From a virus, in IMG/VR virus record IMGVR_UViG_3300033146_003879, positions 54,990 to 118,989 of that record: a stretch of DNA of 64,000 nt; one strand, written 5' to 3'. Every line of letters begins with the position of its first letter. Positions within the stretch are counted from its first letter, which is position 1. The notes beneath the pieces are model-generated. The model was not told the DNA's origin and ran no database searches. It saw nothing but the letters and a program-made list of their open reading frames with translations. A program made the position numbers and the translations under genes. Shown here one piece after another: positions 4,650 to 28,221 of this stretch.

Positions 4650-4650
4650 C

Positions 4651-7428
4651 TTATGCCTCCGTTGCAACTACGGCGTCTGTTACAGTCACGTAGTTATCAA
4701 TAGTTATTAGTTGATCCTGCGGCGATACGCCGTATCTGATAACAAGGCCATTTGGTATAATTGTTATCTCTGCAGCTGTTGCTTTTGCAAGAACTGTTCC
4801 GAGGTGTTTGTAGTAGCGGCTCAGATTTCTTCTGCGGAGAGCTTCAAGACGAAGTCTGATCTCCTGAATAACATCTTCAACAACGTTGTTTTTGCCAAGG
4901 AACTGTTTTGTAATGAAATAAATGTCTTTTGCGTACAACGCGACGGGTTTGATTTTGGGTAGCGTCCCATTCAGAGATGTCCCTTGTTTGAGGCCGCAGC
5001 TAGCATCCCGTATGCAGTATGGCTCAGGAATAGCTCCGAGTGTTGATGTGAGTACGTAGTACCCTGCTGACACTAGTTTGGTGAAGCCTTCCCGTGAGAA
5101 TACAGAGGTTGTCCCATTAACGCGCCCATACCCGAACCCTGAGATTACAACAGACGTGAGAGGCTGGTGTGGAGGAGTACTGATAGATGGGGCAAACATG
5201 AGTATTCCGCTAAACATGTTGTCTAAGCTAATCTGCTTTTCTGTATCTGATCCAACAGGTGTGTATTTGTATTCAATAGTTCCTGATAGGATCTTAAATA
5301 ACCACATGTTGTCTGAGTTCTGAGAGTTGTACATGTAGTCTGCTGTCTCTACGGAGTTCATGTGTTTTACAGCAGTTATGTGTGTTACAGGTCTTGCTGT
5401 GAACACTGAGTTTGTTTCTACAAACACAACATAATTCAACCCTATGTCAGATGACACTGTGAGGGGTGGTAGCGCTGCTCCTGTCAGTGGAGTGAGATTA
5501 ACGATCGATCCTGGGATAAGTTTTGCAGCAAGATCTACACCAGTAACACTTGTGGTGAACATGTAGTGATCACCAATTGTCGTGTCTAGTGTTCCGGCCA
5601 TCCCTTCGTTATTGAATATCACATCATCGGTAACTATTTTTGTTGGGTTCATCCCAATTCTGAATCGAGAGTTGTCAGGGTCGGCTTCTTGTTCCAACCA
5701 TGTATCAAATACACCTCGGTAATCATCCACAAGGAGGTATACCTGGAAGATATCAATGTAGTTTGACAGGATCCCTAAGCCGTCGTTTATGCCTTGATCT
5801 GTTGATGTGTCAATTGGCATAACGTACATTCGAGTCGTTCCTATCATATCCATTGATCGTTGACAAGCAAATCCGAGTGGGTTGCGAGGATCAGCGTATC
5901 CTATCTTGCTGAGGATATCACTATCGACGAGAATAGCGTTGTTAAAAATAGTGGGGTCGCGGTTCTCTGCAATATACCCAAGGTAAACATCACCTGTTAT
6001 TAACAAACCATCATCGGCGCCACACCAAGCAGTGTTGCAGAGTTCGTGGTACTGCCCAGACGCGTATCCTCGGATTATCTTCTTGTCGGTGTATGCGTTT
6101 TGCGTACCGTCCAAAGAGGCTTCTGTTGTTGTTGGATTTACAGTTGTGACGAGATCTCTAACGTCATCTGATTCTTCATCATATACAAAAGAGAACTGCG
6201 TTCTAGCGGTAAGACCTGTTGCAAAAGTTGATGTGCTTGAAAAAGGTTTGTCTGTGAGTGTTATAACACCATTAGCTTCGACAGACTTTTTAACTCGGTC
6301 GATTCTAGTTGTAACAAGTGTTCCTCCAGTATCAACCTCTCCTATAGTGGCTGTGGACTCGTTTGTAATGTAGGTGTGCAGAGCGGCTATGTACTCGGTA
6401 TCGCCAGCTTCCGTACTTGCTACATATGATGGTACGTAGGTCGCTGGTGCCACAGTTCCGGTTACAGCGGGAGCATCAAAAGTGTTGTCTGTTGTGGTGA
6501 ATAAGTCGCCGCCATACAGTCCCATAAGAACACTATGCACTTCAACAGAGGATGCACCTAGGATATCACTCGTACTGAGCCCTGTGTAAGCAATCTCGAC
6601 GGTTGATGTTGCGTCCATTATGTCGGTGGCTAATAGCGTTATTGACGCTTTCATATAGCCAGGTCCTACGTAAGGCACAGAGGAACTCATAAGTTCTGCT
6701 GTTGTTGGTGGTGATGTTGGGACGACAGGTGCCACAACTCCTGCAGCTGTCGCTGTGAACAACTGTAGCGTATTATTTGATATGGTTCCTGTGTTTGTTC
6801 CAGGTGCTGTGGTGAGATCGCGATCTGACAGTAAGTAGTGATCTACTGTTCCTCCGGCCTTTGGAGTAATAACAACTACAAATGACCCAGGCACGGCAAA
6901 GGCATCCGGCATCGGGATTGCTATTGTTAGCACGGATCCAGAGGTGTATAACACACCCTCAGATCCAGTAGCAAATGTATTTGGGTCTGGGGTTACGACT
7001 GTTTGTGAGGAGGTGTCTGTTACATCTTTGCTTGTGAGTACGCACGTTGAGTAAGATAGTGGAATAAGCGTGTGTCTATTAGTTGCTGGGATTACACTGG
7101 TGTTCAAAGACCGATACATAGCAAGGAATTGAGTTGATCTATCATACAACGAAACTGTATCTACGTCGACTTCTGAATAATCCCGGAGGTTTGGGTAGGA
7201 GGTTAGCGGGACTGTTATTGAGGTACTCTTGGTAACATCGTACTTTAGGTCTAAGTTTGTATCTGCGTCAGCAGGTACAAAGTGACCGTCGTCCTCGGCA
7301 GAGCCGGGAACAATGTGTAGGTCCTTGCTTTCTCCGAGAATAATACCCGAATAAGTGATTTGGTTGATGGCTACTGAGGCCGGCTTGTACTCTAGGTATA
7401 CTCTCGAGATCGGGATCAAATCATACAT
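4651..7428 (-). CDS. Tail sheath protein candidate
   Basis: This 925-aa protein is longer than the usual 400-700 aa sheath. The N-terminus reads like a virion beta domain (YLEYKPASVAINQITYSG), the middle is a long Thr/Ser/Val-rich beta region, and the last 130 residues form a helical plus strand domain (EIRLRLEALRRRNLSRYYKH ... VTVTDAV) like the conserved C-terminal sheath domain that ends in a strand exchanged between subunits. FGYGRVNGTTSVFSREGF before it resembles the insertion of a sheath core. CGGAGAATGCC precedes the ATG, and a CTATAAT element is 34 bases upstream. The extra length would be surface-exposed domains. The call rests on architecture and on the tube-like gene that follows. 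Confidence 0.5.
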   Translation of the reverse strand: MYDLIPISRVYLEYKPASVAINQITYSGIILGESKDLHIVPGSAEDDGHFVPADADTNLDLKYDVTKSTSITVPLTSYPNLRDYSEVDVDTVSLYDRSTQFLAMYRSLNTSVIPATNRHTLIPLSYSTCVLTSKDVTDTSSQTVVTPDPNTFATGSEGVLYTSGSVLTIAIPMPDAFAVPGSFVVVITPKAGGTVDHYLLSDRDLTTAPGTNTGTISNNTLQLFTATAAGVVAPVVPTSPPTTAELMSSSVPYVGPGYMKASITLLATDIMDATSTVEIAYTGLSTSDILGASSVEVHSVLMGLYGGDLFTTTDNTFDAPAVTGTVAPATYVPSYVASTEAGDTEYIAALHTYITNESTATIGEVDTGGTLVTTRIDRVKKSVEANGVITLTDKPFSSTSTFATGLTARTQFSFVYDEESDDVRDLVTTVNPTTTEASLDGTQNAYTDKKIIRGYASGQYHELCNTAWCGADDGLLITGDVYLGYIAENRDPTIFNNAILVDSDILSKIGYADPRNPLGFACQRSMDMIGTTRMYVMPIDTSTDQGINDGLGILSNYIDIFQVYLLVDDYRGVFDTWLEQEADPDNSRFRIGMNPTKIVTDDVIFNNEGMAGTLDTTIGDHYMFTTSVTGVDLAAKLIPGSIVNLTPLTGAALPPLTVSSDIGLNYVVFVETNSVFTARPVTHITAVKHMNSVETADYMYNSQNSDNMWLFKILSGTIEYKYTPVGSDTEKQISLDNMFSGILMFAPSISTPPHQPLTSVVISGFGYGRVNGTTSVFSREGFTKLVSAGYYVLTSTLGAIPEPYCIRDASCGLKQGTSLNGTLPKIKPVALYAKDIYFITKQFLGKNNVVEDVIQEIRLRLEALRRRNLSRYYKHLGTVLAKATAAEITIIPNGLVIRYGVSPQDQLITIDNYVTVTDAVVATEA

Positions 7429-14271: not shown

Positions 14272-15876
14272 TTAAGACGCTTCTTTGATCTTCTTTTTCT
14301 TCTTGGCGGTCTTAGCAGTAGCAGCCTTCGCCGTCACTACTTTTGCCCTCTTTTCCTTGTCTTTATTCGCCTGTTCACGTGCTCGTTCTTCTGCAGCTTC
14401 CCGAGCAAGTGCCGCTGCCAGCGTATTTCTCATACGAGCATACCCCGTTGCCCCTTGCGCAATGACTTTTGAGTGTATGCTCGATCCGTGGATAGATATA
14501 CCATCAGTAACAGCTTCAACAACAGGATCGAGGTCCCAGAAGGTTGCCATATCATCCTCTGTTGTTCCAGCTTCTGCTGCAAAGAATTCCACCATGTTAA
14601 TAGAGGCATCCACATCAAACTCAGTAGTTTGATCATGTTCAGCTGCTAGCTTCCCAGCCAGATCTATTACCTGCTCGTCGGTAACATCTCCATCAGGTAT
14701 CGTGAGAAGTACTTTCCTGATAGCACCGCGCGTCCTTCCTAGTTTTCTTTCAGGTATGGCGGGAAGGCCGTGATTTCTCAGGGTATAAATCCCAGAGATA
14801 GAACTTCCTGTTTCATCTCTGAGCTCGTTAATGCGTGATATATTAGTACCCATTGCCGCTAGAATAGTTTCACGATGAACTCCTTTAGCAGTACTCACGC
14901 CACCTAGCTCTGCAATATTCCACAATTTCGCAATCCATCCAGCAACAACCCCGGTGAGGTGTGTGGCCGCCATCATATTCATGGTAGCTGTCTGTGGAAC
15001 CGGCGCTGTCTCTTCCGTGACAGCACAACTATGTAGCGCATCAGGTACAGTCAAGTCGGCGTTATACACATGCGTATAGTCAACAAGGGGTGTATTAACA
15101 GCGCCATTTATAGCAAAGTCAACATCATCATTACCAGCATCGATGTATGCGTAAGATGCGCTAGCGCCACCTCGACCAGCATTCGACAATAGTACTTTAA
15201 GCCCTTCTACAGGAAACAATCCAGACGCGTTTATATTGCCGTCGGAATATCTTGTAACCGCCCTGACGTGAGAGGCCTCCTCGTCATCTATGAAATAAAC
15301 TGCGGTGCGAGCGTCAAAATCTTTTTCCGCCACCGCTTCGATTATCTCTTTGACAGGTTCGATAGATTCAGCAAACCTATCAAATGCAAATTCTCGAGTT
15401 TTGCTTACATGTTTATGATAGTGCTTCTCAAGGGTCTTCCTTGTTAGGTTGTTGTCTACACACATTACAGTTATCGCGGCAGCAACTTGCTCGGGGAATA
15501 ACATCTCCTTAAGGTCCTCGTCAAGATCCCCGTCCGCATTCTCCAACACCAATCTCTCGACCGCCTCTATCCTAATTGCGGGCATATAACCATTCCCAGT
15601 ATTGAGGTGAGGGTCTGTTTGCACTACCGCGGCTGCGAGTATGCGTTCGAGCTTCATGCGCAGATAATCAACCTTCGTCATGCCTATGGATTCCATACCA
15701 AGAAAATGCTGCCGCACCAGGTTGCGTAACTCAATACGATCGTTGTCTATCAAGTTGATAAGCACGGCGCGATCCTCATCTTCGTGGCGCATCCCAATAA
15801 CAGCTCTCAGTATTTGTTCTGAGAACCAGGCGCCGGTACCCCCAGCGCCTATGATGTTTATAGTAATCGCGTTCAT
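14272..15876 (-). CDS. E1/ThiF-like adenylyltransferase (PRTRC-like)
   Basis: 534 aa, about residues 1-320 form a ThiF/E1 adenylation domain that would activate the C-terminus of a ubiquitin-like protein with ATP. Visible marks are the nucleotide loop GAGGTG (10-15), the segment LIDNDRIELRNLVRQ with D44, D46, R51, N52, R55 and Q56, K68, and D141 in CVDNN. SCAVTEE (Cys284) followed by a Gln and MN at 299-300 matches the S-C...Q...N pattern that I know from ThiF proteins of PRTRC cassettes, and Cys284 could be the thioester site. The tail after residue 500 is very Lys/Ala-rich. Its start overlaps the JAMM gene stop (TAATG), so the two are coupled. Confidence 0.8.
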   Translation of the reverse strand: MNAITINIIGAGGTGAWFSEQILRAVIGMRHEDEDRAVLINLIDNDRIELRNLVRQHFLGMESIGMTKVDYLRMKLERILAAAVVQTDPHLNTGNGYMPAIRIEAVERLVLENADGDLDEDLKEMLFPEQVAAAITVMCVDNNLTRKTLEKHYHKHVSKTREFAFDRFAESIEPVKEIIEAVAEKDFDARTAVYFIDDEEASHVRAVTRYSDGNINASGLFPVEGLKVLLSNAGRGGASASYAYIDAGNDDVDFAINGAVNTPLVDYTHVYNADLTVPDALHSCAVTEETAPVPQTATMNMMAATHLTGVVAGWIAKLWNIAELGGVSTAKGVHRETILAAMGTNISRINELRDETGSSISGIYTLRNHGLPAIPERKLGRTRGAIRKVLLTIPDGDVTDEQVIDLAGKLAAEHDQTTEFDVDASINMVEFFAAEAGTTEDDMATFWDLDPVVEAVTDGISIHGSSIHSKVIAQGATGYARMRNTLAAALAREAAEERAREQANKDKEKRAKVVTAKAATAKTAKKKKKIKEAS

Positions 15877-18521
15877 TACTCCGCTTCCTCCGTTTTAGAT
15901 TGTCCTTTCTCAGCCACTCCCTGAGCAAGAACTGTGTTCTTGTCAAACAGCACCTGCAGTCTGTCCTTCCAACCAACAAGTGCTCCTCTAGCACTCACAT
16001 CATGAGCTGCGGTGTCTAACAACCTACAGATGATTGCAACAGTAAGGAGTATATTTGCTGCATACATCGCGTCAGCTATAGTATGTATTTCCAACTCGTC
16101 AGCAAACTCCTCAATAAGTGGTCTCGGAATAGGCTTAACCAGGTTAGTTGTGAGTGCGGGTGGTGCAATAACTGCTTCCGAATCCGTCGAATAATGTGTA
16201 TACAGCATACCAGCAACCTTAAGCATATTATCATTCATGACTTTTTCGACAGCACTCCAAGGACGTAAGTATTGAGTTTGCTTAATAAGAGCCTCAACTC
16301 CTGGGTGGATTGCATAATGCATAGCGAGGTTGTACACGGTTCCGTAAGAAACAACTTTAGGGTCGATACCCTCTGCACCTACACTATACTTCTCGTATAT
16401 GTCAACCTCCATCAAATTCGCTTCATACATTGCAACCAGTTCAGCATACACTTCTGTAGGGATATCTTTCGCTGCCCACGAATTCTGTGCCATAACACCA
16501 GCAACCGCTTCAATAAAGAGGATATCTATAGCTACAGCATGCACTTGCTCTGTGGCATCAAACTCAGGAACGGCATATCTTTCAATAGCGTCATCAACAA
16601 CACTCAGCGATACAGGGTAGAACTGCGCGGTGTAATCCTCAACAGGTTTTGCTTCGCCTGTTGCTGGCATAATATCTGCCATCTCCTCTATGTACTCTTC
16701 GACAAAGCTCGCTTCTATCTCAAACAGTGTTTCCATGTGTTCCTCAGCAGCGTCAAGTGTCAGTTTGTCTATAGAAAGCTTTTCGTCATTAACACACGAC
16801 TCTGCTATACCTATGAGGTTAGCAACAACAGAATCTATCGCATCGCCGTCAACGTGAGATTTCACAACGCTCTTAATCGGTTCCAGTTCTGCAATTTTAG
16901 GAGCTGGTGTAGTAGCAGTTCTTAACGCAGGTGCCGTGGTGTGAGGCGAGGTTCTTCCAGCGCCGATAGAATCGAACATATCGACTCCTGCATATTGCTC
17001 CCACGCGGTTCGATAACCACGATAGTTATTCTGGTAGTTTCCGGTGTATCCTGTGTACCTTGGTGCGTGGAAAAGCTTGTACCCCTTATCTTCAAGTGGG
17101 GACTGCTTCAAGAACGCTCTGTGCGCTCCATTTACATTACGAAACAGTGTAGTGTGATCAATCCGCAGGTTTTTGTCGAGATATTTTGATGTTCCAGGAA
17201 TAAGCGTATATGCAGAGAACGTTGACGCCATGATATCGATGTACAATGTAAGCTCTACCTTTCGCTCAAGTTCGTCTCTCTCCATAAGTGCCAAGCCAAT
17301 AGGTGCGGTCTCTCCTGACATCTCAAGCTTACTGTCTCCTTTGTGAATATGAACGAGAATCTTAACACCATTGACTACAAGAATCTTTCGTACAGCTGTG
17401 AGGAGTTCAACCCCCGCGTTACCAAATCTCGATAAACCCATTTCGGCTTCCAGCTTGGTACGAAGCTCCATAACGTCGAGTGAGTTTGGGACAAAAGCGC
17501 AGTCGACAACATCAACATCATTACGGAAGAAGAATCTACCATCGCTACCTTCAATCGCTTCTGCGTAGGATTTAACAACAGCAGCCTTAGGCTTTATCGC
17601 ATTAGCCGTGTACCCTCCTGTAGCAGGGACCAACAAGGCATTAGTTGGCTGCTTAAAGGACTTGCGTTTATACTTCTTCTTGTGCCCGCCAATAATTCTG
17701 TGTAACCACGATCCGCCTGTTCTCTTCAACGCAGCTTGCTCAGCGGCGACGCGTGCGTCTTTTACTTCTTTGTGGCGCTCTATAACAGTATTTATATGCT
17801 CAAGAGTAAGCTCATCCAGTGCTTCCTCTGCTGTCTCGGTGAGACGCCAATGCATGTCTGGAACACCGTTTGTAAATGCATCTTTCGGATCAAGAAATTT
17901 CTTAACTCCAGACAATCTTACATTCACACCACCAAACTCGTTGCTACTAGGAGAAAACGTAATGTTACCGTAGTAGCGTCCATTCATCTTCTCTGTTGAG
18001 GCCTGATCGGGACCGGAAAACATTCCGGGGGCAACACCGAACGGGTGGCTGTGAAATTCTCCAACAATTACTGCATTTGGATAATGCATAAACATGCGCT
18101 TAATTGCGGGTATCTCAACCGTATAAAATGCGCCTTGTAGATCTTGATATTCAGGACACACAACAAAGTACTCCCCAGAGTCATTGTCTCGCATAACAAA
18201 TGCGCACGCCTCTGTGCCGAGCTCGGCAGAGATTTTACCAATAACTTGACGTACTTGAATGAGCACTTCTGTAGGAAGCTTTTCTTTTATCCATGTCTTG
18301 ACCGGAACCTGAGCTTCTTCTGGAACTTTATACCACTCACCGTCGTGCGGTATAATTTCACTATAGTTGCGATCTGCCTCAATCATGTTAAGTAGCGACA
18401 CTCCTTCTTCAGAAGTATCAAGCACAACTTGCGGCGTTGACTCAAGAGTGTCTGCTACAGGATACTCTGATATTGCGAGCTCTGATACGCAGGTTACTGC
18501 GATGTTTTTCTTTTTTAGCAT
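15876..18521 (-). CDS. JAMM/JAB-domain peptidase with long C-terminal extension
   Basis: 881 aa from MLKKKNIAV; the ATG at 18521 follows GGAGGAAATCCCT, the same leader used by two other genes of this cassette. A JAB/MPN metallopeptidase domain lies at about residues 85-220. The metal site is E155, H157, H159, S169 and D172 in GEFHSHPFGVAPGMFSGPD. The H-to-S spacing is nine residues, longer than the usual seven. Known JAMM proteins next to E1-like enzymes process or remove ubiquitin-like modifiers. The following 650 residues have no recognised domain and include acidic helical stretches. A basic patch (HKKKYKRKSF) follows the catalytic domain. Confidence 0.8.
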   Translation of the reverse strand: MLKKKNIAVTCVSELAISEYPVADTLESTPQVVLDTSEEGVSLLNMIEADRNYSEIIPHDGEWYKVPEEAQVPVKTWIKEKLPTEVLIQVRQVIGKISAELGTEACAFVMRDNDSGEYFVVCPEYQDLQGAFYTVEIPAIKRMFMHYPNAVIVGEFHSHPFGVAPGMFSGPDQASTEKMNGRYYGNITFSPSSNEFGGVNVRLSGVKKFLDPKDAFTNGVPDMHWRLTETAEEALDELTLEHINTVIERHKEVKDARVAAEQAALKRTGGSWLHRIIGGHKKKYKRKSFKQPTNALLVPATGGYTANAIKPKAAVVKSYAEAIEGSDGRFFFRNDVDVVDCAFVPNSLDVMELRTKLEAEMGLSRFGNAGVELLTAVRKILVVNGVKILVHIHKGDSKLEMSGETAPIGLALMERDELERKVELTLYIDIMASTFSAYTLIPGTSKYLDKNLRIDHTTLFRNVNGAHRAFLKQSPLEDKGYKLFHAPRYTGYTGNYQNNYRGYRTAWEQYAGVDMFDSIGAGRTSPHTTAPALRTATTPAPKIAELEPIKSVVKSHVDGDAIDSVVANLIGIAESCVNDEKLSIDKLTLDAAEEHMETLFEIEASFVEEYIEEMADIMPATGEAKPVEDYTAQFYPVSLSVVDDAIERYAVPEFDATEQVHAVAIDILFIEAVAGVMAQNSWAAKDIPTEVYAELVAMYEANLMEVDIYEKYSVGAEGIDPKVVSYGTVYNLAMHYAIHPGVEALIKQTQYLRPWSAVEKVMNDNMLKVAGMLYTHYSTDSEAVIAPPALTTNLVKPIPRPLIEEFADELEIHTIADAMYAANILLTVAIICRLLDTAAHDVSARGALVGWKDRLQVLFDKNTVLAQGVAEKGQSKTEEAE

Positions 18522-18572
18522 AGGGATTTCCTCCAATATTTACAAATGTATTTCCAAAAAATAAGCGAGGAG

Positions 18573-18610
18573 GAGCCCGTTTATATCCGCCAGCAGATAT
18601 AAACAGGCTC
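18573..18610 (-). other. Intercistronic stem-loop between the 100-aa gene and the JAMM gene
   Basis: GAGCC and GTTTATATC pair with GATATAAAC and GGCTC, leaving one C/A mismatch and an 8-base loop. No T tract follows on the minus strand, so a processing, stabilising or attenuating element is more likely than a full terminator. Confidence 0.6.
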
Positions 18611-18620
18611 ACTCGTTAAG

Positions 18621-18923
18621 TTACGCGACGGCGCCGGAAGCCTTAGACTTCACGGCCGTACTTGCTACAATCTCCTCTTCATAGGTACGATCTTGTGCAC
18701 CGTATGATTGCTGAACAACAGGGCTTGACTCCCCTGCGCTGTCGGGAACGTTGTTCGCAAACTCGCGAACCTCCCTCAAGTTCATGCCGTCAAGATCGGG
18801 TGGCATCTGGTCGCCTCTGGATTTTGCAGCAGCAAAAGCTGCAACAAACTTTGATGTAAAGTTAGACCCTACACCTTCAACAGTCACAGTACGAGATCCG
18901 AAACGGAGCTGGTAAGTTTTCAT
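18621..18923 (-). CDS. Small protein, possible ubiquitin-like modifier
   Basis: 100 aa from MKTYQLRFG; the ATG at 18923 follows TTGGAGGAAATCCCA. The upstream frame to 19001 has no ribosome binding site. The first 20 residues suggest a beta hairpin (KTYQLRFGSRTVTVEG) followed by a helix (FTSKFVAAFAAAKSRG), the order expected of a beta-grasp fold. Residues 75-100 look like a disordered tail ending in SGAVA rather than the Gly-Gly of ubiquitin. The call as a modifier comes from its place between a ThiF/JAMM pair and two partner genes; it could also be an unrelated small protein. It has its own GGTATAAG promoter. Confidence 0.75.
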   Translation of the reverse strand: MKTYQLRFGSRTVTVEGVGSNFTSKFVAAFAAAKSRGDQMPPDLDGMNLREVREFANNVPDSAGESSPVVQQSYGAQDRTYEEEIVASTAVKSKASGAVA

Positions 18924-18977
18924 TGGGATTTCCTCCAAGTTATGTACATAAATGGGACAATGCGCCCCTACCATATT

Positions 18978-18985
18978 CTTATACC
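18978..18985 (-). promoter_or_regulatory. GGTATAAG promoter element before the 100-aa gene
   Basis: Minus strand TGTGGTATAAGAATATGG, about 55 bases before the start at 18923. Same class as the elements at 22682, 39090, 46175 and 51099. Confidence 0.6.
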
Positions 18986-19016
18986 ACATCAGGTGCTTCA
19001 TTTTGCATTATGGTAC

Positions 19017-19916
19017 CTATCGTCTTGTGTGAATGATTACATTAATGCACGCCATTACAAGACTCATTGACGTATTGTTGTAAATGGTATACTGGCTAAA
19101 ACTACTATCATGTATCTTAATATCGTTCAGTATTGGTATGGAGTTTCCGCTAAACTGATACTCTTTCTCATTGAATGCACGACTCAGCATAGCGCGTATA
19201 TTATCGCGTGTCTCAGTCAGGATTCTCCCTGTCGCCCGAGCCTCCATAGCCCCATTTTGAGAAGAGATGTCCGCAGAGGCTGCGCCAAAGGACAGAATAG
19301 CACCGGCAATAGCAAACGCTATCTTAAAGTACGTCTCATCATTCTCCTCGAGAAGCTCAAACTTCTTGTTGTCTTCTCCTTGGCTATAGTATGTGCCTGC
19401 TAGCCATTTATGTATGTCTCTCTGGGCATGTCGAAGGAACTCTCCTGGAGGAGCATCGAACGATATCACATGGGTCTCGGCAACTCGACGAACGAGAGTA
19501 TCAACAGGAGGGATGAAGCCCCTGTTACCTTTATAGACAGTGACATCCGCAACAGGCAAGACAAGAGCCAAGCCCGTCTTACTTTCATACACTTCGTGCC
19601 ACAACTTTGCAAGCGTCTCAGGCGCAAGATTGCGCTCTTGCGTGCGGTATCGCACCTCTGCAGCGTCAAACTCTGCTAGTTTGTTAATATCACACACTTC
19701 TCTCCCTTGCGTAAAATTAACGCATAGGCCATTCCTGTATATAATGTCTGGCCTGAACGGGCTTGCGATAACATCGCTGAGTATCTGAACATCGGAGGAG
19801 AGGTCCGCAAGCGAGCTCATGATATCTTTCATATCCTTCTCTAACCTTGCCTGAGCCTCTCGCATCGCTTTTATATTAGCGCGTAGGTTTTTCTTCCTTT
19901 CTTTTCGGTCATTCAT
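19017..19916 (-). CDS. Cassette protein of unknown function, speculative E2-like partner
   Basis: 299 aa from MNDRKERKK; the ATG at 19916 follows GGAGGATACT. Residues 1-50 are a basic coiled coil. Then comes IIYRNGLCVNF with Cys65 and a second Cys75. E2-like proteins of PRTRC-type cassettes carry a similar strand-Gly-x-Cys segment, so this could be the carrier for the modifier, but the match is short and unproven. A hydrophobic stretch near residue 210 (IAFAIAGAILSFGAA) could be buried or membrane-associated. It lies 41 bases after the 895-aa gene in one operon. Confidence 0.7.
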   Translation of the reverse strand: MNDRKERKKNLRANIKAMREAQARLEKDMKDIMSSLADLSSDVQILSDVIASPFRPDIIYRNGLCVNFTQGREVCDINKLAEFDAAEVRYRTQERNLAPETLAKLWHEVYESKTGLALVLPVADVTVYKGNRGFIPPVDTLVRRVAETHVISFDAPPGEFLRHAQRDIHKWLAGTYYSQGEDNKKFELLEENDETYFKIAFAIAGAILSFGAASADISSQNGAMEARATGRILTETRDNIRAMLSRAFNEKEYQFSGNSIPILNDIKIHDSSFSQYTIYNNTSMSLVMACINVIIHTRR

Positions 19917-19957
19917 AGTATCCTCCGGTAACCGGGCAGCGTTAGCCACCCGGATAT

Positions 19958-22645
19958 TTAAATAAACATCTGCGCCGCAGACTCAGCGACTGCTTTCTCC
20001 ATAGAAATCGGGGTAACGTGCACCAATGCACTCATAAGCAGCGCCAACAACCTGTCGGAGCCATCTGATTCTATCTTAGCAACAACCTGATCAAATATAA
20101 CAGGATTAAACACGCTTAACACCTCGTCGACACCATTATCAATATATGGAAGCGCATCATCTTCAAGGGCAGCATTGAGTTCGTGAACTGTCTTCCCAGC
20201 CAGTGTGATATATGGAAGCGCATCATCATCTTCAAGGGCAGCATTGAGTTCGTGAACTGTCTTCCCAGCCAGTGTGTCAGGTATGCCTCTAAACAAGCTT
20301 GCGTTGTACGGGTCTTCAAAATAGAGGCCTGTGTCACGCAGTACTGTCGCCGTGGCAGTCGGAAGCATTGCGGCGAACAGAAAGTCTATGGGTCGAATAT
20401 AACTCGACATTGACGACACAGCTTCGATAATATTTTCCTTACTCTCTGGAGAGAACGCGATGCACTCACGTATTGTCCGTGCGTACATGTCCGTCATCAC
20501 ATAACGCAAGAACGTAATATATGAGAATACTACAAGTGTGACTTTCTTTGTGTGAGACAACGCCTTCTCTTCATCAGTGACAAATAATTCGTCGGCGTGT
20601 TTCTTCACAATCCTATCAAACAAGATATATGCAGGAGTGTCTCGTTTCTTCAACTGCCGCCACCCGTTGCTTGAATAACTCAGATTTCTCTCCATGTGCT
20701 CAGCAACATCAATGAGAGAGTAGTGCTCCGGAACAGACAGGGAAGCATCGAGCGTATTCTCATCAGTTCTTCCCTGGTAGTTTGATTGGCGTAGGTGGTG
20801 CGAAGGCCCAGTGGAACGAGTAACCCACCAAGAATCCATATCATGTAGCGTAACTTTATTAGCACCATCATCCTGCATTGTTATCTTTGTCTTTGTACGG
20901 ACTTCGCCAGTAAGCAACTCCCGAAGCCTTGCTATAGGAAACAACTCATACTCGATCACTACGTTTGAAATGCGGGCATGCGTACCCTCCGCCGCATACG
21001 CAGTAATGTCATTGTAATCTAATGGTGATACGTAGCGTTTATACCACCCTTCAGTGCGGCTCCTGATAGCTTCGAAGTTATAGTTACTTGGTATTACATC
21101 ATATCCATCGTTGGGTATGTCGTCGTACCCAAATGCGAGTGCGAGCAGATTTGATAAAGTAGAATTACCTTGCTCATTATCACCTAATTCGTTAATCAAA
21201 GGAGCACATACGAGACCATATGCACCTCCGTAAGAATCATATGTTATGTGGCGTAAACTTGTGCCGAGGTCTGCGTTCCATTGTTCAATCTCACTCTCCA
21301 GAACCTCCCGAGCCCGAATGGTATTTGCGTTACCTGTACAGATGCTCCGTTGTGCCGCGGGCGCGTGGAAATCATTCGCAGCATTCGTGTTTGCTCTGCC
21401 TACAACCGAAATGGTACGTGCTCTCGTGTACCCACGCAGTGTACCTGTACTGTATCGGTTTATGGTATCTATCACGCTACTGCTGATTCCGCCATGAATA
21501 TTACCCATGATCGGCTGAAAGTCAGTAGGTGTTATATATCCCCACGCGGTTAGGGTACCAGACCCCGTTATAAGGCCGTCCTGCGAATCATATGCGCTTG
21601 GAAGATCCGACAACGTTACCGACTTTGAGATAAAGACGTGTCCTTTTATTGAAACATATCCACCATCGGAATTGGTGTAGGAGTTACCGCGAACACCTTG
21701 ATCATTACCTTCAAGTAGGTGGTGTGACATGGCAAAGTGATTACGTATATCGGTGAGGTTAAACGGTGTTACTATATTCTCTTGGACACACATACGCCTA
21801 AGCGGCCTAGCGCAAACTGAAGCTCGCTTCATTATCAGGTGAAGGCCTTGCCCATAACTTGAAAGAACATTCTGATATCTACTTGAGCTTACTATCACCG
21901 TATTTTCTTGTACATATCTTGAATCGACACCGAGTTCAACCTCCTCGGACGATACACCGATAAGAGACCCAGACAAACCGAGTGATGTACGCAGAGCATT
22001 TCTATGCTCCTCGTTCTCTTCTCCGAGGAAATACTTCTCGAAGGAATTATCTCCAGGTAGAGGGTTAGCCATAGGTTCTCCGAATACAACAGCTCTCCAG
22101 AAAGCAACAACATTAGGATCAAAATCAACTGACCTCAACGATAACTTAAGAGAATCTCTTACACCACCTTGTAAACGCAGATACTCAGGAAACATAGCGA
22201 TAGGGTATGCGCCAAGTTGATACTCAGCTTCGCGCTGCGTGAGCGCTTTATCTGACATTGATGCTATGGTATTTGCTATCACATCGCCTTTGAGAACGAT
22301 GTTACTGTCATGCACTCTATCAAGCTTTTGATAAAGCTTAATAATAAGTGCTCCATTAAGCGGTCTACTCTCACGCCGCTCTCCGTCCCTGGCCTCTTCG
22401 GCAATAAACCCAGCACCACGAATAGCGTCAATTGCTGGTTCTCCAGTGAATGCTTGCTTCAAGTAATCAGGGATATCCTCTGAGTCAAGGAATTGTGCAA
22501 CTTCGGTAGGCATAACAAATACATCCGGATCTACTTCTTCTTCAACAACACCGTTTGCTCGCGTGACTCTCAAAGCTCCTCTAATCACATCTAACGGAAC
22601 GCCGTGCGCGTATACACCACGTACTTGTACATTAATTCTTGGCAT
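19958..22645 (-). CDS. First gene of the E1/JAMM cassette, function unknown
   Basis: 895 aa from MPRINVQVRG; the ATG at 22645 follows CTGGAGGAAATCCC. No domain was recognised. It opens with a short beta-rich part (INVQVRGVYAHGVPLDVI), and the rest is mixed. The C-terminal part contains a perfect tandem duplication (TLAGKTVHELNAALED...ALPYI twice, one copy with an extra Asp). A GGTATAAG element is 37 bases upstream. As the first gene of the operon it could be the substrate, adaptor or ligase of the modification system; a virion protein is equally possible. Confidence 0.75.
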   Translation of the reverse strand: MPRINVQVRGVYAHGVPLDVIRGALRVTRANGVVEEEVDPDVFVMPTEVAQFLDSEDIPDYLKQAFTGEPAIDAIRGAGFIAEEARDGERRESRPLNGALIIKLYQKLDRVHDSNIVLKGDVIANTIASMSDKALTQREAEYQLGAYPIAMFPEYLRLQGGVRDSLKLSLRSVDFDPNVVAFWRAVVFGEPMANPLPGDNSFEKYFLGEENEEHRNALRTSLGLSGSLIGVSSEEVELGVDSRYVQENTVIVSSSRYQNVLSSYGQGLHLIMKRASVCARPLRRMCVQENIVTPFNLTDIRNHFAMSHHLLEGNDQGVRGNSYTNSDGGYVSIKGHVFISKSVTLSDLPSAYDSQDGLITGSGTLTAWGYITPTDFQPIMGNIHGGISSSVIDTINRYSTGTLRGYTRARTISVVGRANTNAANDFHAPAAQRSICTGNANTIRAREVLESEIEQWNADLGTSLRHITYDSYGGAYGLVCAPLINELGDNEQGNSTLSNLLALAFGYDDIPNDGYDVIPSNYNFEAIRSRTEGWYKRYVSPLDYNDITAYAAEGTHARISNVVIEYELFPIARLRELLTGEVRTKTKITMQDDGANKVTLHDMDSWWVTRSTGPSHHLRQSNYQGRTDENTLDASLSVPEHYSLIDVAEHMERNLSYSSNGWRQLKKRDTPAYILFDRIVKKHADELFVTDEEKALSHTKKVTLVVFSYITFLRYVMTDMYARTIRECIAFSPESKENIIEAVSSMSSYIRPIDFLFAAMLPTATATVLRDTGLYFEDPYNASLFRGIPDTLAGKTVHELNAALEDDDALPYITLAGKTVHELNAALEDDALPYIDNGVDEVLSVFNPVIFDQVVAKIESDGSDRLLALLMSALVHVTPISMEKAVAESAAQMFI
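20143..20277. repeat. In-frame tandem duplication inside the 895-aa gene
   Basis: Two adjacent units of 66 (20143-20208) and 69 bases (from 20209) starting tatatggaagcgcat are identical except for one extra CAT in the second. In the protein this doubles a 22-residue segment. The near identity means the duplication is recent. Confidence 0.85.
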
Positions 22646-22681
22646 GGGATTTCCTCCAGGTAATAAAAAAGTTTCCATCTA

Positions 22682-22744: not shown

Positions 22745-22810
22745 TAGTATGTTCATCCGATTGAGTTGTATTCAGTTCGGAGTTGTTATGTAATTACTGG
22801 AGGTGTTACC

Positions 22811-23668
22811 ATGGTTGGTATGCGTGAATTAGAGCAGTTATTGTCAGGATTGAGCCCAAAACAGTTAACAGCGCTGCTTGCAGCTGTTGGTGCTGGTGGA
22901 GCGGCGTTAGGCGCAGGCGGAATTGCCGGGTATAACGCAATGCAGCCAGAGCCATCCGTGTTAGATAGCCTCACCGGTGGAATATCCGATGCTTATAACA
23001 ATACAACTGATTATCTCGGTGGCGTATTTGGTACGGAAGAGCCATCAATGTGGGATAACTTCGCTGATACTGTTGGTGATGTCTATGACAACGCAACAAA
23101 TGGACTAAGTAATTTGTTTGGCGGCAATGGAGATGCGGAAGCAATGGAAGCATTTAAAATTGCTGCAATTCAACAAGACTTTATCAAGCAAGCCGCTCTC
23201 GAAGTAGAACTCAGAAAGGTGGCTGACGAAGCGATGCTTGAATATGCTATATTAAAGGAGGCTGGGTTAGCTTCGACGCTGAAGTCAGGCCTTAAGGCAG
23301 GCGCAGAAGCGGTAAAAGATAAAGTAATACCTACAATCAAGGACACTGCCAAAAAAGTAGCAGATAGTCCGTATGTGAAAGAAACTATTGCCGACGCTAA
23401 GGTGCAGGGCAAGAAGCTATACGATGCAACAAAGCTTACCGGTGAAGTAGTTGGTGATAAGGTGCAGGAAGTTGCTGGAAGAGCCCTTTCTCCAGAAGTA
23501 AAGCAGACACTTAGTAGATATAAAGATCTATTGCAAGGCAACACCGCAAAATCTCTTGCCTCCGGAGGAAGCCCTGAAGCACTTAAAAAAGAGCTTGCGA
23601 AAGTATACGGAACAAGAGCAGCAACGGCTGCTGGTGTTGGTGGATTAGCATACGCAACTCGTGACTAA
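22811..23668 (+). CDS. Glycine-zipper virion-type protein 1
   Basis: 285 aa. ATG at 22811 follows TGGAGGTGTTACC; the frame open to 22766 is not supported. It has an N-terminal Ala/Gly-rich hydrophobic helix (LLAAVGAGGAALGAGGIAGY), two copies of a 'DVYDNATNGLSNLFGG' type segment, then amphipathic LLKxA-type helices ending in EYAILKEAGLAS. The same EYxxLKEAGLAS string is in the 26079 gene. These features suggest a protein that is packed in the virion or inserts in membranes, such as an internal or ejection protein. Function not identified. Confidence 0.8.
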   Translation: MVGMRELEQLLSGLSPKQLTALLAAVGAGGAALGAGGIAGYNAMQPEPSVLDSLTGGISDAYNNTTDYLGGVFGTEEPSMWDNFADTVGDVYDNATNGLSNLFGGNGDAEAMEAFKIAAIQQDFIKQAALEVELRKVADEAMLEYAILKEAGLASTLKSGLKAGAEAVKDKVIPTIKDTAKKVADSPYVKETIADAKVQGKKLYDATKLTGEVVGDKVQEVAGRALSPEVKQTLSRYKDLLQGNTAKSLASGGSPEALKKELAKVYGTRAATAAGVGGLAYATRD

Positions 23669-23684
23669 TTACGGAGACAGGACG

Positions 23685-24317
23685 ATGGCAACAACTATGC
23701 TTACATACACCTTAGAGATGCTATCCAGGAAACTACAGAAGAAAGCTGCAGGGATGGGCCTGTTGGACGATGGGCTACGCTACATCAGTGCAACAGCACA
23801 TGGTATGTCTGGTGGAGGGTTTGCCCGGAACGCTAAGAAAGCAGTATCGCACATACCCGTTAAGCAAGTTGCATTAAGTGCAGATGAAATAGCATTACGT
23901 AACGCTTTGCATTCCGCTAATAAACAAACGAGAGCCAGCATAGCCGGAAGGATCGGTGAAATGATACCAACACCTCCTAAATCAAGAGCCCTTGTTTCAG
24001 TCAAAGTGTTACCCGCACCTGCAGATTCACCTACAGCAATGCGCATAATGCAAGCTGCCGGACTAATAGGTGGTGGCTACGGGTTATCTCGTATCCTGTC
24101 CGGAACACCGCGTGAACGTGATAATTTTGACAGAATGCGTGATATGTACGAAGATACAACGGATTACATGTCAGAATTGTTCACCCCGAGGCAAAGAACA
24201 CCGATGGAGTACATAGAGAATCTGTTTACTCCAAACAAAGATATATTTGATAGATCGCGAGATGTGTACGAAGATACAGCAGATTACGTATCTGATCTTT
24301 TCTCGCGAAATGAGTAA
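23685..24317 (+). CDS. Glycine-zipper block protein 2
   Basis: 210 aa from MATTMLTYTLEML; ATG at 23685 after CGGAGACAGGACG; a GTG at 23661 overlaps the preceding gene and is less likely. It starts with an amphipathic helix ending KLQKKAAG. The C-terminal 70 residues hold two copies of a segment like MYEDTTDYMSELFTP / VYEDTADYVSDLFSR, related to the repeated segment in the preceding protein. Paralogy with gene 1 is visible; the role is unknown. Confidence 0.75.
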   Translation: MATTMLTYTLEMLSRKLQKKAAGMGLLDDGLRYISATAHGMSGGGFARNAKKAVSHIPVKQVALSADEIALRNALHSANKQTRASIAGRIGEMIPTPPKSRALVSVKVLPAPADSPTAMRIMQAAGLIGGGYGLSRILSGTPRERDNFDRMRDMYEDTTDYMSELFTPRQRTPMEYIENLFTPNKDIFDRSRDVYEDTADYVSDLFSRNE

Positions 24318-24319
24318 CG

Positions 24320-24325
24320 TATAAT
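24320..24325 (+). promoter_or_regulatory. TATAAT element
   Basis: ACGTATAATGTAATAACC, 33 bases before the start at 24358, just after the preceding stop codon. It could give this gene and those after it a separate transcript. Confidence 0.4.
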
Positions 24326-24357
24326 GTAATAACCAATATACCTTGGAGGGTATCATT

Positions 24358-25182
24358 ATGAACGAAAGAACAATGCTCAAAAGAGCAATCATGGAAGAGT
24401 TGTACATGAATGACTTAGTTAAGGAGGCAGCTGCAAAGCAGGAGTTGCTTAAGAAACAAGCCGCAGCTATTGAGCTTGATGCTCTCCTTAAGCATGCTGC
24501 ATCAGAACCAGGATACGGCGATTACGCACAGGCTGGGGCTGCTCTGGGCGGCGGGGGCACAGCACTTGCAAGTGCTCTTATAGGAGCCGGTGTGGGCCAC
24601 GGACTGAAACAAAGAGCGCTGTTCTCACTTATGGGAGGACTCGGAGGAGGTGCCATCGGTGGTGGTTTCGGTGCCCTATCTGGGCTTGCGCAGAAGAAAG
24701 TTAACAATTGGATTGACAGCGGAGATAAGAGCCTCTTCCTGAATAGGAGTCGCCTAATGGATGCTGCTGCTCAAAAATTCTCCGCATCAGATATTGACAT
24801 GCTTATTAAGCAGGCCGCTATCGAAGAAGCAATCTTGCAGCAAGCAAATATTACACAAGACAACATGGCTGACGCTAATGCAGCTGCCATGCAAGCTCTT
24901 GTACAACTTGCTGGCGGAGGCGAGAGCCTTCAGCAAGAAGCTGCAGAAGGTGAGATTCCACCAGAATTATTGCAGCAGATAATGGCAGAACAAGGCGGCG
25001 CTCAAGGAGCACCTCAAGGCGGAGAGCAGATTCCACCTGAGATTCTTGCCCAACTTGCTGCAGCACAGCAGCAAGAGCAAGCTGCTCCAGCACAAGCTGC
25101 TCCAGCACAAGCTGCTCCAGCACAAGAAGAGCAAATTGAGCAGAAAGTAGCAAGCGCTTACTTTGATATCCTCAATTATTAA
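24358..25182 (+). CDS. Glycine-zipper block protein 3 with Pro/Ala/Gln repeat
   Basis: 274 aa from MNERTMLKR; ATG at 24358 after TGGAGGGTATCATT. The first 50 residues carry three LxKxAA-type amphipathic turns (LVKEAAAKQ, LLKKQAAA, LLKHAA). Residues about 60-115 are a Gly/Ala-rich membrane-type stretch (GAALGGGGTALASALIGAGVG). After another SDIDMLIKQAA segment comes a Gln/Gly/Pro-rich tail with three APAQA repeats. It ends in VASAYFDILNY. Unknown function; the tail is probably flexible. Confidence 0.75.
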   Translation: MNERTMLKRAIMEELYMNDLVKEAAAKQELLKKQAAAIELDALLKHAASEPGYGDYAQAGAALGGGGTALASALIGAGVGHGLKQRALFSLMGGLGGGAIGGGFGALSGLAQKKVNNWIDSGDKSLFLNRSRLMDAAAQKFSASDIDMLIKQAAIEEAILQQANITQDNMADANAAAMQALVQLAGGGESLQQEAAEGEIPPELLQQIMAEQGGAQGAPQGGEQIPPEILAQLAAAQQQEQAAPAQAAPAQAAPAQEEQIEQKVASAYFDILNY

Positions 25183-25242
25183 GAAGGTGGTGGTATAAAG
25201 GTGGCTGCTTCGGTGGCCACCGATTACTCTAGGGGGTACGAA

Positions 25243-25623
25243 ATGTCAGAACGTAAGACATACAATAATCTCAAGGATATGACTACAGATTTACTTATGA
25301 CAAAGAAGGCATTCTACAACCCACTACCGATGCTCACACACACACTTGGGGGAGCCGGAATAGGTGCGGTGGCAGGAGGCCTTGCAGGCGGAACAAAAGC
25401 TCTTCTTAATGGACGAGATGCTGCAGACGGCGCAGCTCGCGGAATGCGCATAGGCGGAGTTCTTGGAGGCATTGGTGGATTTGGTCATGGTTATGGGTAC
25501 GCGAAGATGACAGATCCCAAACGTATCGCAGAGATGGTTAAAAAGAATCCCGGCGCTGTATCAAAATGGCTTAGTAGATTAGGTAACAATGGAAAACAGA
25601 CACTCCAGACATTGCGCCCATAG
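25243..25623 (+). CDS. Glycine-zipper block protein 4
   Basis: 126 aa if started at MSERKTYNNL, where ATG at 25243 follows TAGGGGGTACGAA; a GTG at 25201 in the same frame is also open. Residues about 35-85 are a Gly/Ala zipper (LGGAGIGAVAGGLAGGTKALL ... GVLGGIGGFGHGYGY) that can form two closely packed helices. It is basic at the end. No family recognised. Confidence 0.65.
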   Translation: MSERKTYNNLKDMTTDLLMTKKAFYNPLPMLTHTLGGAGIGAVAGGLAGGTKALLNGRDAADGAARGMRIGGVLGGIGGFGHGYGYAKMTDPKRIAEMVKKNPGAVSKWLSRLGNNGKQTLQTLRP

Positions 25624-25624
25624 G

Positions 25625-26077
25625 GTGCATAAATATGCACTCGGCGTGCTCGATGTAGTAACTACGTCAAGTATTCATGACAAGTACTCAGATAGAGGTA
25701 CGTGGCAAGAGGCCGCAGGAGGTGCGCTTGGCGGAGGGACACTCGGTGCTATTGCTGCTGAGTTGCTTGGCAGGGACGAGGATAGGAGCTACTTTGCATC
25801 AAGAGGAGCAGTAGTCGGAGGAGCACTAGGGCTTACAGGTGCCTTAACAGACCCGGAGAAAGCAGTTAATATGGCTACGGGTGGAGCTGTTGGCGGCGGA
25901 GTTAGTTTATTAGCAGCACACCTTGCGGCTAACCTGCTTAACAAAGACGCTGACACCACGAAAGAGTGGGCTCAGCTAGCAGGTGGTGCGGGACTTATAT
26001 CAGGTGTGATTGCTGGAAAGAGCGGTATGTTTGATATAAAGGACTTATTTAACTCAATAATGAATAAGGAGATTTAA
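25625..26077 (+). CDS. Glycine-zipper block protein 5
   Basis: About 150 aa. The start is uncertain: a GTG at 25625 lies right after the preceding stop (TAGGGTG) and gives VHKYALGVLDVV, like other proteins of this phage that start with a KYA head; an ATG at 25589 in the same frame would overlap the preceding gene. Three Gly/Ala-rich hydrophobic stretches (GGALGGGTLGAIAAEL, GAVVGGALGLTGAL, GGAVGGGVSLLAAHLAANLL) suggest membrane or tightly packed helices. Confidence 0.6.
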   Translation: MHKYALGVLDVVTTSSIHDKYSDRGTWQEAAGGALGGGTLGAIAAELLGRDEDRSYFASRGAVVGGALGLTGALTDPEKAVNMATGGAVGGGVSLLAAHLAANLLNKDADTTKEWAQLAGGAGLISGVIAGKSGMFDIKDLFNSIMNKEI

Positions 26078-26078
26078 C

Positions 26079-27764
26079 ATGGCACCTACAGGAAGGCTTC
26101 GGCAGTATCTTGCAAGAAGAAGTGCTAATGCGATAAGTAGATCTGTTAATAAGATGTATCGAGCCGCTGGTGGAACCCACACAGGGACAAGTGACTTCAA
26201 GGATATGTTACGGGATTACCTCGAGAGCGTTCCTAAATTACATGATCCTAAAGGTCTCTTTAACGTGTTATCCGGACGTGAGCTTTCTTCTGTTAACAAA
26301 GCAGCAGCTTCTGAGTTGTTTAACGGAGTAGCTCCCCTCGGACGAAATGTTATTGATTCGATAATAGATCACTCCGCAAACAGACAACTTATGACGAGAG
26401 CGGCTACGGGATTATTCGGAGCAGGAGTACTTGGCGGTACAGGTATGTATGCAAACAGTAAGTTTTCCGCTTCCGGATCTGATTTCGAGAAAGAGATAAA
26501 GAAAGACATGGATGAAGTGCAGACTACAGGTAAGCCGAAAGTACCAAGCAAAGCTCCAGAAGTTCTTGCTAACGGAAGTAGTTTCGTTTCCCCCGAACTT
26601 ATTAATAAGAAATCATTTGAGAATGCGTACACAGCATACGCAGCAAAGGAGAACGCTATGAATAATGACCTACTGGAAATTGTAAAAGAAGCAACACTTG
26701 AATACAACATGCTTAAAGAGGCCGGGCTCGCGTCAGGACTAAAGCGCTATAAGAATCTGTTGACTGGAGGAATTAAGCACGACGCCAAGGTAGCAGCAAC
26801 AAAACTGAGTAGTGCGCTCAAAGCAAAAGGGATTGAGAATGCAGGTTTAATACCAGGATATAAAGCACAAGCAAAAGATTTAGTTGAGTTGTACACAAAG
26901 AATGATATAATCCCTGCGAACTTGACACCTAGCTATTTAGATGATCTTATTAAGAAGACGGAGGATCTTATTCAGTCGGGTAACATTGACGGCTCTGACT
27001 CGAACGTAATAACAGCACTGGATACTATGCGGAATAATCATGGATACCGCGAAGCATTCCTAGGAGCAGATAATGTGCTTGATGCTAATCTAGCTGGGAT
27101 CGATGAAATGGTGAGGCAGGCAAATGCTAAAGCAGCAAAACTAGCATCAGAATCAAGTCTTGCTAATAAAGCATACAACAAAGCGGTACGAGACACACTA
27201 ATTACCCGTTTAGGTACAGGGGCTGCTGGACTAGGGGCGCTTGGCGCAGGTGGGTATGCCCTTGGAAAAGATGCCGCTATCGGAGCTAATATGCTTAAAA
27301 AGGCCGGGTGGCATGAAGATCGGTTCCCAGCCATGGCTGCTATGAAAGCTGATAATGATTACTTTCTTTCAGGAAGATACGCAGCGGATAGATTGGCTGA
27401 GAGAAAAGTCGCTCGAGAAGCGCAGCAAGAAGAAGCAGCCCTTCACAGACAAGCAGTAATGGATGCTATAACCAACAACGTTCTCCCACAGAAAATAGAT
27501 CCAGCTCTCATACAGAGCGCAATTGACGCTACACCACACAGCGACATAACACCAAACAGCGTAATTACAGGAGCCTTATTAGGAGGCCTCGCAGGGGGAG
27601 CTGGAGGAGCATTACACGGTTACGGAGTACCTTCACTCAATCCTTTCCACGATAGAGGCGAGGATACTAAACAAGCACTTATTGAAGCCGCTATCGGATC
27701 CATCCTTGGAGCCGGAGCAGGTGGCACAGCAGGATACGGACTAAGTAAACTAATTGGCGATTAA
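26079..27764 (+). CDS. Glycine-zipper block protein 6 (largest)
   Basis: 561 aa, ATG at 26079 after AAGGAGATTTAAC. It has a basic N-terminus (RLRQYLARRSANAI), a hydrophobic Gly segment near residue 110, a KEATLEYNMLKEAGLAS segment near 205 that recurs in the 22811 gene, a second hydrophobic segment near 380 and a final Gly zipper (ALLGGLAGGAGGALHGYG ... GSILGAGAGGTAGYGLS). Long helical linkers lie between. It looks like an assembled set of the same modules as its smaller neighbours. Function unknown. Confidence 0.8.
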   Translation: MAPTGRLRQYLARRSANAISRSVNKMYRAAGGTHTGTSDFKDMLRDYLESVPKLHDPKGLFNVLSGRELSSVNKAAASELFNGVAPLGRNVIDSIIDHSANRQLMTRAATGLFGAGVLGGTGMYANSKFSASGSDFEKEIKKDMDEVQTTGKPKVPSKAPEVLANGSSFVSPELINKKSFENAYTAYAAKENAMNNDLLEIVKEATLEYNMLKEAGLASGLKRYKNLLTGGIKHDAKVAATKLSSALKAKGIENAGLIPGYKAQAKDLVELYTKNDIIPANLTPSYLDDLIKKTEDLIQSGNIDGSDSNVITALDTMRNNHGYREAFLGADNVLDANLAGIDEMVRQANAKAAKLASESSLANKAYNKAVRDTLITRLGTGAAGLGALGAGGYALGKDAAIGANMLKKAGWHEDRFPAMAAMKADNDYFLSGRYAADRLAERKVAREAQQEEAALHRQAVMDAITNNVLPQKIDPALIQSAIDATPHSDITPNSVITGALLGGLAGGAGGALHGYGVPSLNPFHDRGEDTKQALIEAAIGSILGAGAGGTAGYGLSKLIGD

Positions 27765-27789
27765 CAACAACAAGCATAAGGGGAAGACA

Positions 27790-28221
27790 ATGTTAAACAA
27801 GTACGCACAGGCTATCGCAGTAGAAAGACTTATTAAAGACGCAGCAACACAAGCGAACCTGCTTAAGCAAGCAGCCATCGAACAAGAAATGTACGTCGAA
27901 GCTCTTATCAAGCAGGCTGGATTTGACTTTGGTGATGCGATGGACAGCATCGCAGAATCAGATCTTGTCCAGAATCTCAAAGAGAAGTACGGGGAACATG
28001 GTAAGACAATCCTCAATGACGCCCTTGCAGGAACACTTGCTGGAGCCGGGATTGGCGGAATGGCTTCTCTCATGGGAGACGGAAGTTTGTTGAGCGGCCT
28101 CGGAAGAGGAGCTATGCTCGGTGGAACCGGTGGAGCTATTCTTGGCGGACTAACCGCTGCAAATAAAGAATACGCAGATTCAGACATGAGAGATCAACTT
28201 CTTGAGTTGCTCAAGAGATAA
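27790..28221 (+). CDS. Glycine-zipper block protein 7
   Basis: 143 aa from MLNKYAQAIAVERL; ATG at 27790 after GGGGAAGACA. Residues 1-45 are amphipathic with LIKDAA, LLKQAA and LIKQAG. Residues about 60-130 form a module (VQNLKEKYGEHG ... LAGAGIGGMASLMG ... GGTGGAILGGLTAA) that is nearly repeated at the C-terminus of the next gene, so the two are paralogous over this length. Confidence 0.75.
   Translation: MLNKYAQAIAVERLIKDAATQANLLKQAAIEQEMYVEALIKQAGFDFGDAMDSIAESDLVQNLKEKYGEHGKTILNDALAGTLAGAGIGGMASLMGDGSLLSGLGRGAMLGGTGGAILGGLTAANKEYADSDMRDQLLELLKR

Follow-up and report, generated by a model that had tools for sequence, protein, structure and literature searches.

An E1–JAMM gene pair in a large tailed phage as a candidate member of a tail-linked ubiquitin-like conjugation cassette

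The five-gene locus

The stretch of viral DNA analyzed here, 64,000 nucleotides in length and hereafter called the window, spans G000:C1:54990-118989 of the 182,989-base IMG/VR virus record IMGVR_UViG_3300033146_003879 (record label G000), and contains five genes that form a candidate cassette for the conjugation and removal of a ubiquitin-like protein (Ubl). From the highest coordinates downward, they encode proteins of 895 amino acids (aa; 19958..22645), 299 aa (19017..19916), and 100 aa (18621..18923), a JAMM/JAB metalloprotease of 881 aa (15876..18521), and an E1/ThiF-type adenylating enzyme of 534 aa (14272..15876). All five are on the minus (-) strand, as are the leaders and the hairpin considered below, and their G+C content is 46-51% against 45% for the window. 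A preliminary description of this DNA had proposed that the phage carries its own modification system, with the 100-aa protein as a possible beta-grasp modifier and the 299-aa protein as a possible E2.

The E1 protein matches Pfam ThiF from residue 5 onward (E=4.9e-10), and its best NCBIfam model is PRTRC_ThiF (TIGR03736), at 4.3e-8 and 32.8 bits versus a cut-off of 144.75. The ATP-binding GAGGTG motif occupies residues 10-15, and the ATP site further comprises D46, R55, Q56, K68, and D141. When the window protein is aligned with six other phage E1s, G10, G12, D44, D46, N52, Q56, K68, D141, R146, and C284 are invariant, and Cys284, at the catalytic or sulfur-carrying position of E1 enzymes, is the same in all seven; R55 is present in the window protein. 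Judged by these motif residues and the conserved Cys, the protein is an intact E1-type enzyme, for which thioester chemistry is predicted. Its C-terminal ~200 aa lie outside the assigned domain and end in a Lys/Ala-rich tail. By blastp, the protein matches the E1 of Salmonella phage Arash (1.6e-5).

The JAMM protein matches Pfam Prok-JAB at E=0.0019, under the gathering score, with a domain at about residues 80-260. Its zinc-site motif, consisting of E103, H157, H159, S169, and D172, aligns with eight other phage JABs; the H/H/S/D residues are invariant across all nine, and the spacing from HxH to S is two residues longer than in the Arash JAB. Beyond the domain lie a Tyr-rich segment and a long C-terminal part outside the assigned domain. 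By its motif the protein is an intact JAMM protease, and proteolysis is predicted. Its gene directly adjoins that of the E1, the stop of the former overlapping the start of the latter by one base. The preliminary description had recognized the first enzyme from its GAGGTG and D/R/Q/K residues and the second from its E-HxH-S-D pattern, and both assignments are upheld by the family matches and the aligned columns.

Searches of structural and viral databases extend this picture at the level of the family. Against the PDB, the E1 family profile retrieves MccB as its top match, with BubCD among the matches, and the JAB family profile retrieves AMSH-LP (4e-5) and RPN11. Since both profiles were built with the relatives included, these matches support the family, and the window proteins are supported only through alignment. 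Taken singly, the window E1 has no phmmer match in the PDB and the JAMM protein has chance matches only; direct tblastn of the E1, JAMM, and 895-aa proteins against INPHARED and single-sequence searches of IMG/VR with the E1 and JAMM returned no match.

A common leader, GGAGGAAATCCC, ties the enzyme pair to two upstream genes; that three of the five genes share it had been noted previously. Exact copies stand before the 895-aa gene (22646..22657), the 100-aa gene (18925..18936), and the JAMM gene (18523..18534); all three directly precede cassette start codons, and the window thus holds three copies versus 0.15 expected, with none in the remainder of the 183-kb record. Between the 100-aa and JAMM genes, RNA folding identifies a terminator-like 17-bp hairpin followed by a T-run (18573..18610; -31 kcal/mol, z=-6.06, 0 of 200 shuffles as stable), which probably ends transcription at this point. 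The five genes had been described as a single run; their common strand and positions hold, but given the hairpin the cassette is likely to consist of two transcription units that carry one translational signature.

The remaining three products are the places where a modifier and a carrier were sought. Single-sequence AlphaFold2 (AF2) prediction of the 100-aa protein, a candidate partner or non-canonical modifier, gives strands at residues 2-8 and 11-17, helices at 20-36 and 49-57, and then a disordered tail ending ASGAVA, in agreement with the hairpin-then-helix start read from its sequence earlier. Two of the five models agree at a predicted local distance difference test score (pLDDT) of ~70, the best reaching 72.5 and residues 1-60 ~88. 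Foldseek found no match to it in the PDB or BFVD. As a homologue of phage Ubls it was rejected, with 244 of 1950 reported shuffles scoring at least as high and a rank of 69 among the open reading frames (ORFs) of the record. The 299-aa protein has a coiled-coil-like N-terminal stretch and no convincing family. The strand-Gly-x-Cys segment ascribed to it is literally present, as RNGLC, but without family support; it was rejected both as an E2 (no family match, no signal) and as a homologue of the 325-aa protein of the relatives described below (no signal).

The 895-aa protein has no family match, but it holds FHAPAAQRSICTGN (Cys436), which resembles SSGAICTGN of the E2 of phage BgVeeders33; its ICTGN, a possible E2-like motif, recalls Prok-E2_D proteins. 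A position-specific E2 scan placed the protein 56th among 916 ORFs and chose another site, giving the motif no statistical support; the scan also missed other candidate E2s and is therefore insensitive. A different Cys, at about residue 286, was placed weakly against E2 by hhalign, and the single-sequence AF2 model was discarded (pLDDT 32). The same gene carries an in-frame 69-base duplication (window 20142-20276) that gives a repeated TLAGKTVHELNAALED segment.

Cassettes in related phages and the tail-gene neighborhood

The record encodes a terminase, DNA polymerase A, NAD-dependent ligase, and SNF2-type helicase, and as such represents a large tailed phage. No close relative of it was found, terminase matches being mostly 20-30% identical. 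Alignment of the terminase reached 80 viral loci, of which 40 records were searched for E1-like ORFs; seven contained one, which in G012, G013, G014, G018, and G019 is found a few kb or less from the terminase. Arash, Vibrio phage D69, and five IMG/VR records are related to the window phage via terminase, sheath-like, and tube-like proteins, and share a gene order of Ubl, 325-aa protein, 80-aa protein, E2-like protein, JAB, and E1, beside terminase and tail genes. The preliminary description had suggested looking for linked genes in relatives, and here Ubl and E2 do stand beside JAB and E1.

The best NCBIfam model for the relatives' JAB is PRTRC_A (7e-19), and six Arash-clade records match that model (TIGR03735) at 6e-20 to 6e-23; for the E1 it is PRTRC_ThiF (4e-17), all under the cut-off. 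The E2 matches Pfam Prok-E2_D at 0.0018 in the Arash clade and 4e-4 in D69, for which BgVeeders33 (2e-39) served as control. The Ubl itself is 65-66 aa long, ends in TGTKG, and occurs singly or as two or three tandem copies. G019 has two (identical at 60/60 residues), as does G018 (53/60), and D69 has three, their TGTKG ends falling at residues 64, 144, and 258. Such arrays look like a small polyubiquitin gene. The G019 Ubl matches the PRTRC_C model (TIGR03738) at 0.012 over its GTKG end, and the PRTRC_C-type protein of BgVeeders33, a member of Prok_Ub (1.8e-27), carries VGTKG and then an extension; from this likeness and the strand-helix pattern, we infer a beta-grasp fold for the TGTKG proteins.

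In Arash, gp246c (E1) and gp248c (E2) carry the depositor annotation "structural protein," and gp251c (L124 19682-19900; OQ632216 180500-180718) is annotated over the Ubl gene in a different frame. The annotated start of the D69 E1 (L125 6821-7834, OZ195729) seems truncated, as an open frame upstream takes in a GCGGTG motif.

More distant phages present variations on this theme. The terminase relative G001 encodes a 280-aa protein with HPHIKDNACFGN, a 401-aa protein, a JAMM protein, a ThiF protein (6e-25), and a 94-aa ThiS-like protein (0.0012). Similar diverged E1/JAB neighborhoods occur in crAss001 (gp75-gp79), Fpv3, a gut scaffold and its IMG/VR relative, G015, and G027, and PhiXhv-12 encodes an E2-like 892-aa protein, a Ubl ending in GG, and ThiF, with no adjacent JAB seen. 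The E2 label in these distant phages (G001, crAss001, Fpv3, PhiXhv-12, and the like) is assigned only from a Cys motif and gene position. Three further features of these loci deserve mention: the 892-aa protein of PhiXhv-12 (L023 3238-5916) has, at each end, Cys-rich clusters that look zinc-binding and recall RING domains; a reverse-transcriptase gene directly follows the cassette E1 in gut phage elements (L025 6939-8288, L026 8464-9696); and the RNA polymerase gene of G001 (L015 12608-18055) fuses beta and beta-prime and contains an intein and a LAGLIDADG domain.

Within the window, two minus-strand genes connect the locus to the structural proteins of Arash. In blastp-type comparison, the product of 4651-7428 (-) resembles the gp236-type structural protein (8e-5) and that of 3819-4667 (-) the gp237-type (3e-4); they are likely the tail sheath and the tail tube, respectively. 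Judged by these homologues, the cassette is embedded in a tail/baseplate gene block. The record's terminase lies far from the cassette, yet is related to the terminases of cassette-bearing phages.

Elsewhere in the window are genes for a 750-aa protein with a reverse transcriptase domain (33136-35388 (-); RVT_1 3.6e-17), a 1092-aa protein with DUF5906 that is possibly a primase-helicase (419-3697 (-); 1.1e-10), and a series of small hydrophobic Ala/Gly-rich proteins (22766-28221 (+)). Short LLKYA-like N-terminal motifs recur across many ORFs of the record.

A probable phage-owned conjugation system and its alternatives

It seems rather probable from these sequence comparisons that the window carries a much-diverged representative of a phage-owned Ubl-conjugation and deconjugation cassette tied to the tail module. 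With the full set present in its relatives, some phages probably tag proteins by a ubiquitin-like system of their own. In such a system, the E1 would adenylate the C-terminal Gly of a modifier, which an E2-like carrier, possibly part of the 895-aa protein, would then pass on to its targets, while the JAMM protease would trim modifier precursors and take the modifier off again. Given the position of the genes in several phages, the likeliest substrates would be the phage's own virion or tail proteins, or host proteins encountered in the course of assembly, so that the system may act at the virion or in the takeover of the host. Were complete Ubl-E2-JAB-E1 sets with polyubiquitin-like tandem modifiers to operate in cultured phages such as Arash and D69, phages would be using conjugation themselves, a proposition that is directly testable in Arash.

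Several observations weigh against this reading of the window. The model of the 100-aa protein lacks the remaining strands of a beta-grasp fold; phage-family profiles detected no Ubl or E2 among the ORFs of the window or of the remaining record; a search of the 40 related records gave no direct homologue for either the window JAMM or the 895-aa protein; and in the E1 tree the window protein is a long branch without firm placement. A search for a Ubl with a C-terminal Gly elsewhere in the record likewise gave no convincing candidate. Of the modification system first proposed, therefore, the E1/JAMM pair is real and the relatives have linked Ubl and E2 genes beside terminase and tail genes, but the tag and its carrier were not found in the window. 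The two specific candidates put forward for these roles did not survive: the 100-aa protein has a beta-beta-alpha-alpha arrangement with a disordered tail, no Foldseek match, and Ubl similarity no greater than that of shuffled sequences, and the 299-aa protein has no family match to support an E2.

A locus that shows a JAMM and an E1 but no Ubl or E2 would also suit a stripping role: the protease would remove host-made tags, such as those of the Bil, Bub, or type II CBASS systems, from phage or host proteins, the E1 would serve as a decoy, and the phage itself would conjugate nothing. Hosts do have systems of this type (BilABCD, PMC11354881). We nevertheless hold counter-defence to be unlikely, if the least so among the alternatives, considering that related phages retain their own Ubl and E2, that the cassette is placed in a structural block and not among accessory genes, and that a decoy has no need of the intact conserved Cys and ATP site described above.

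Next in order, and itself improbable, is the proposal of an E1 devoted to small-peptide or sulfur chemistry, in the manner of MccB or ThiF, and of a JAMM protein that is a virion maturation protease adjacent to it by chance. MccB is indeed the top PDB match of the E1 family profile, and the window proteins are far longer than their conjugation homologues. Chance adjacency, however, is at odds with the recurrence of E1 and JAB as neighbors in most phage lineages examined, accompanied by Ubl and E2 in several, and family searches revealed no sulfurtransferase or peptide-modification partner among the five proteins.

A further and quite doubtful variant retains conjugation with both the full Ubl and its carrier replaced: the 100-aa protein would be a half-grasp tag (...KASG-AVA), matured by the JAMM protease at Gly and activated by the E1, and the 895-aa protein would act as the E2 that transfers it to virion or host proteins. 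If true, a bacterial virus would encode a modifier that, like Pup, lacks the beta-grasp fold and is driven by an E1-type enzyme. The weakest proposal, and to us a very unlikely one, is that the cassette acts as a phage-carried defence island for superinfection exclusion, its modification directed at competing phages or at defence factors of the host; PRTRC-like JABs do occur on plasmids and E1-E2 families in defence systems, but no effector gene was identified, and the shared leader and tail-block position suggest expression alongside structural genes.

A tail-linked phage cassette of the kind we favor has bearing beyond this record. Work on bacterial ubiquitin-like conjugation has concerned host defence and plasmids. 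Neither ThiF nor JAB proteins are mentioned in a 2021 review covering 224 jumbo phages, and our search found no literature on such phage systems, which is weak evidence of absence as subscription papers and preprints were outside its scope. A cassette with tandem modifiers, spread among phages and linked to their tail genes, appears to be undescribed in the openly available literature searched, while its known parts are already supplied by PRTRC and other bacterial cassettes (PMC1779556).

Comparison with known systems

Among annotated phages, Acinetobacter phage ME3 offers a partial likeness, with a "PRTRC system protein A" and a ThiF protein (JAB- and E1-like) annotated; in contrast to the cassettes above, its two genes are separated by about 3 kb, and the annotation shows no complete cassette. 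Type II CBASS provides a second point of reference through Cap2, an E1-E2 fusion: the window adenylation domain matches PADLOC E1-E2 models (1e-6), but the matches cover the E1 part only, and no CD-NTase occurs among the five proteins. As the window E1 starts at its Rossmann motif, it has no N-terminal E2 fusion.

The Bil systems act on phage tails, and their hallmarks are a Ubl pair, an E2 with a CEHH motif, and an E1 with two adenylation domains. The phage sets follow the Ubl, E2, JAB, and E1 logic of Bil and Bub, but adjoin the phages' own terminase and tail genes and have Ubl repeats ending in TGTKG. The window, with only one recognizable ThiF domain in its E1 and neither a Ubl nor an E2 identified, does not show the Bil hallmarks. 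In Bil, BilA is the two-Ubl protein, and the BilABCD enzymes have been described (PMC11354881). JAB and Ub-like genes inside phage tail blocks also recall the lambda-type tail assembly proteins I and K, which combine a Ub-like protein with JAB/NlpC (PMC1779556). The lambda set, however, is without E1 or E2, and the window JAMM is without an NlpC/P60 match.

A further comparison is with the PRTRC or "6d" plasmid cassette described by Iyer et al. 2006 (PMC1779556) and represented by models TIGR03735-03738. PRTRC_ThiF is the nearest NCBIfam model to the window E1, but the window record matches neither PRTRC_A (TIGR03735) nor PRTRC_C (TIGR03738), and PRTRC_B (TIGR03737) is matched neither in it nor in the relatives. 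As PRTRC_A, B, and C were tested and unmatched, we do not file the window locus as a PRTRC member. No ParB gene was noticed in the phage cassettes examined. Arash and the other relatives come nearer, with their PRTRC_A-like JAB, Prok-E2_D E2, and small Ubl ending in TGTKG, and differ from the plasmid cassette in their tandem Ubl repeats and in two extra genes, for the 325- and 80-aa proteins.

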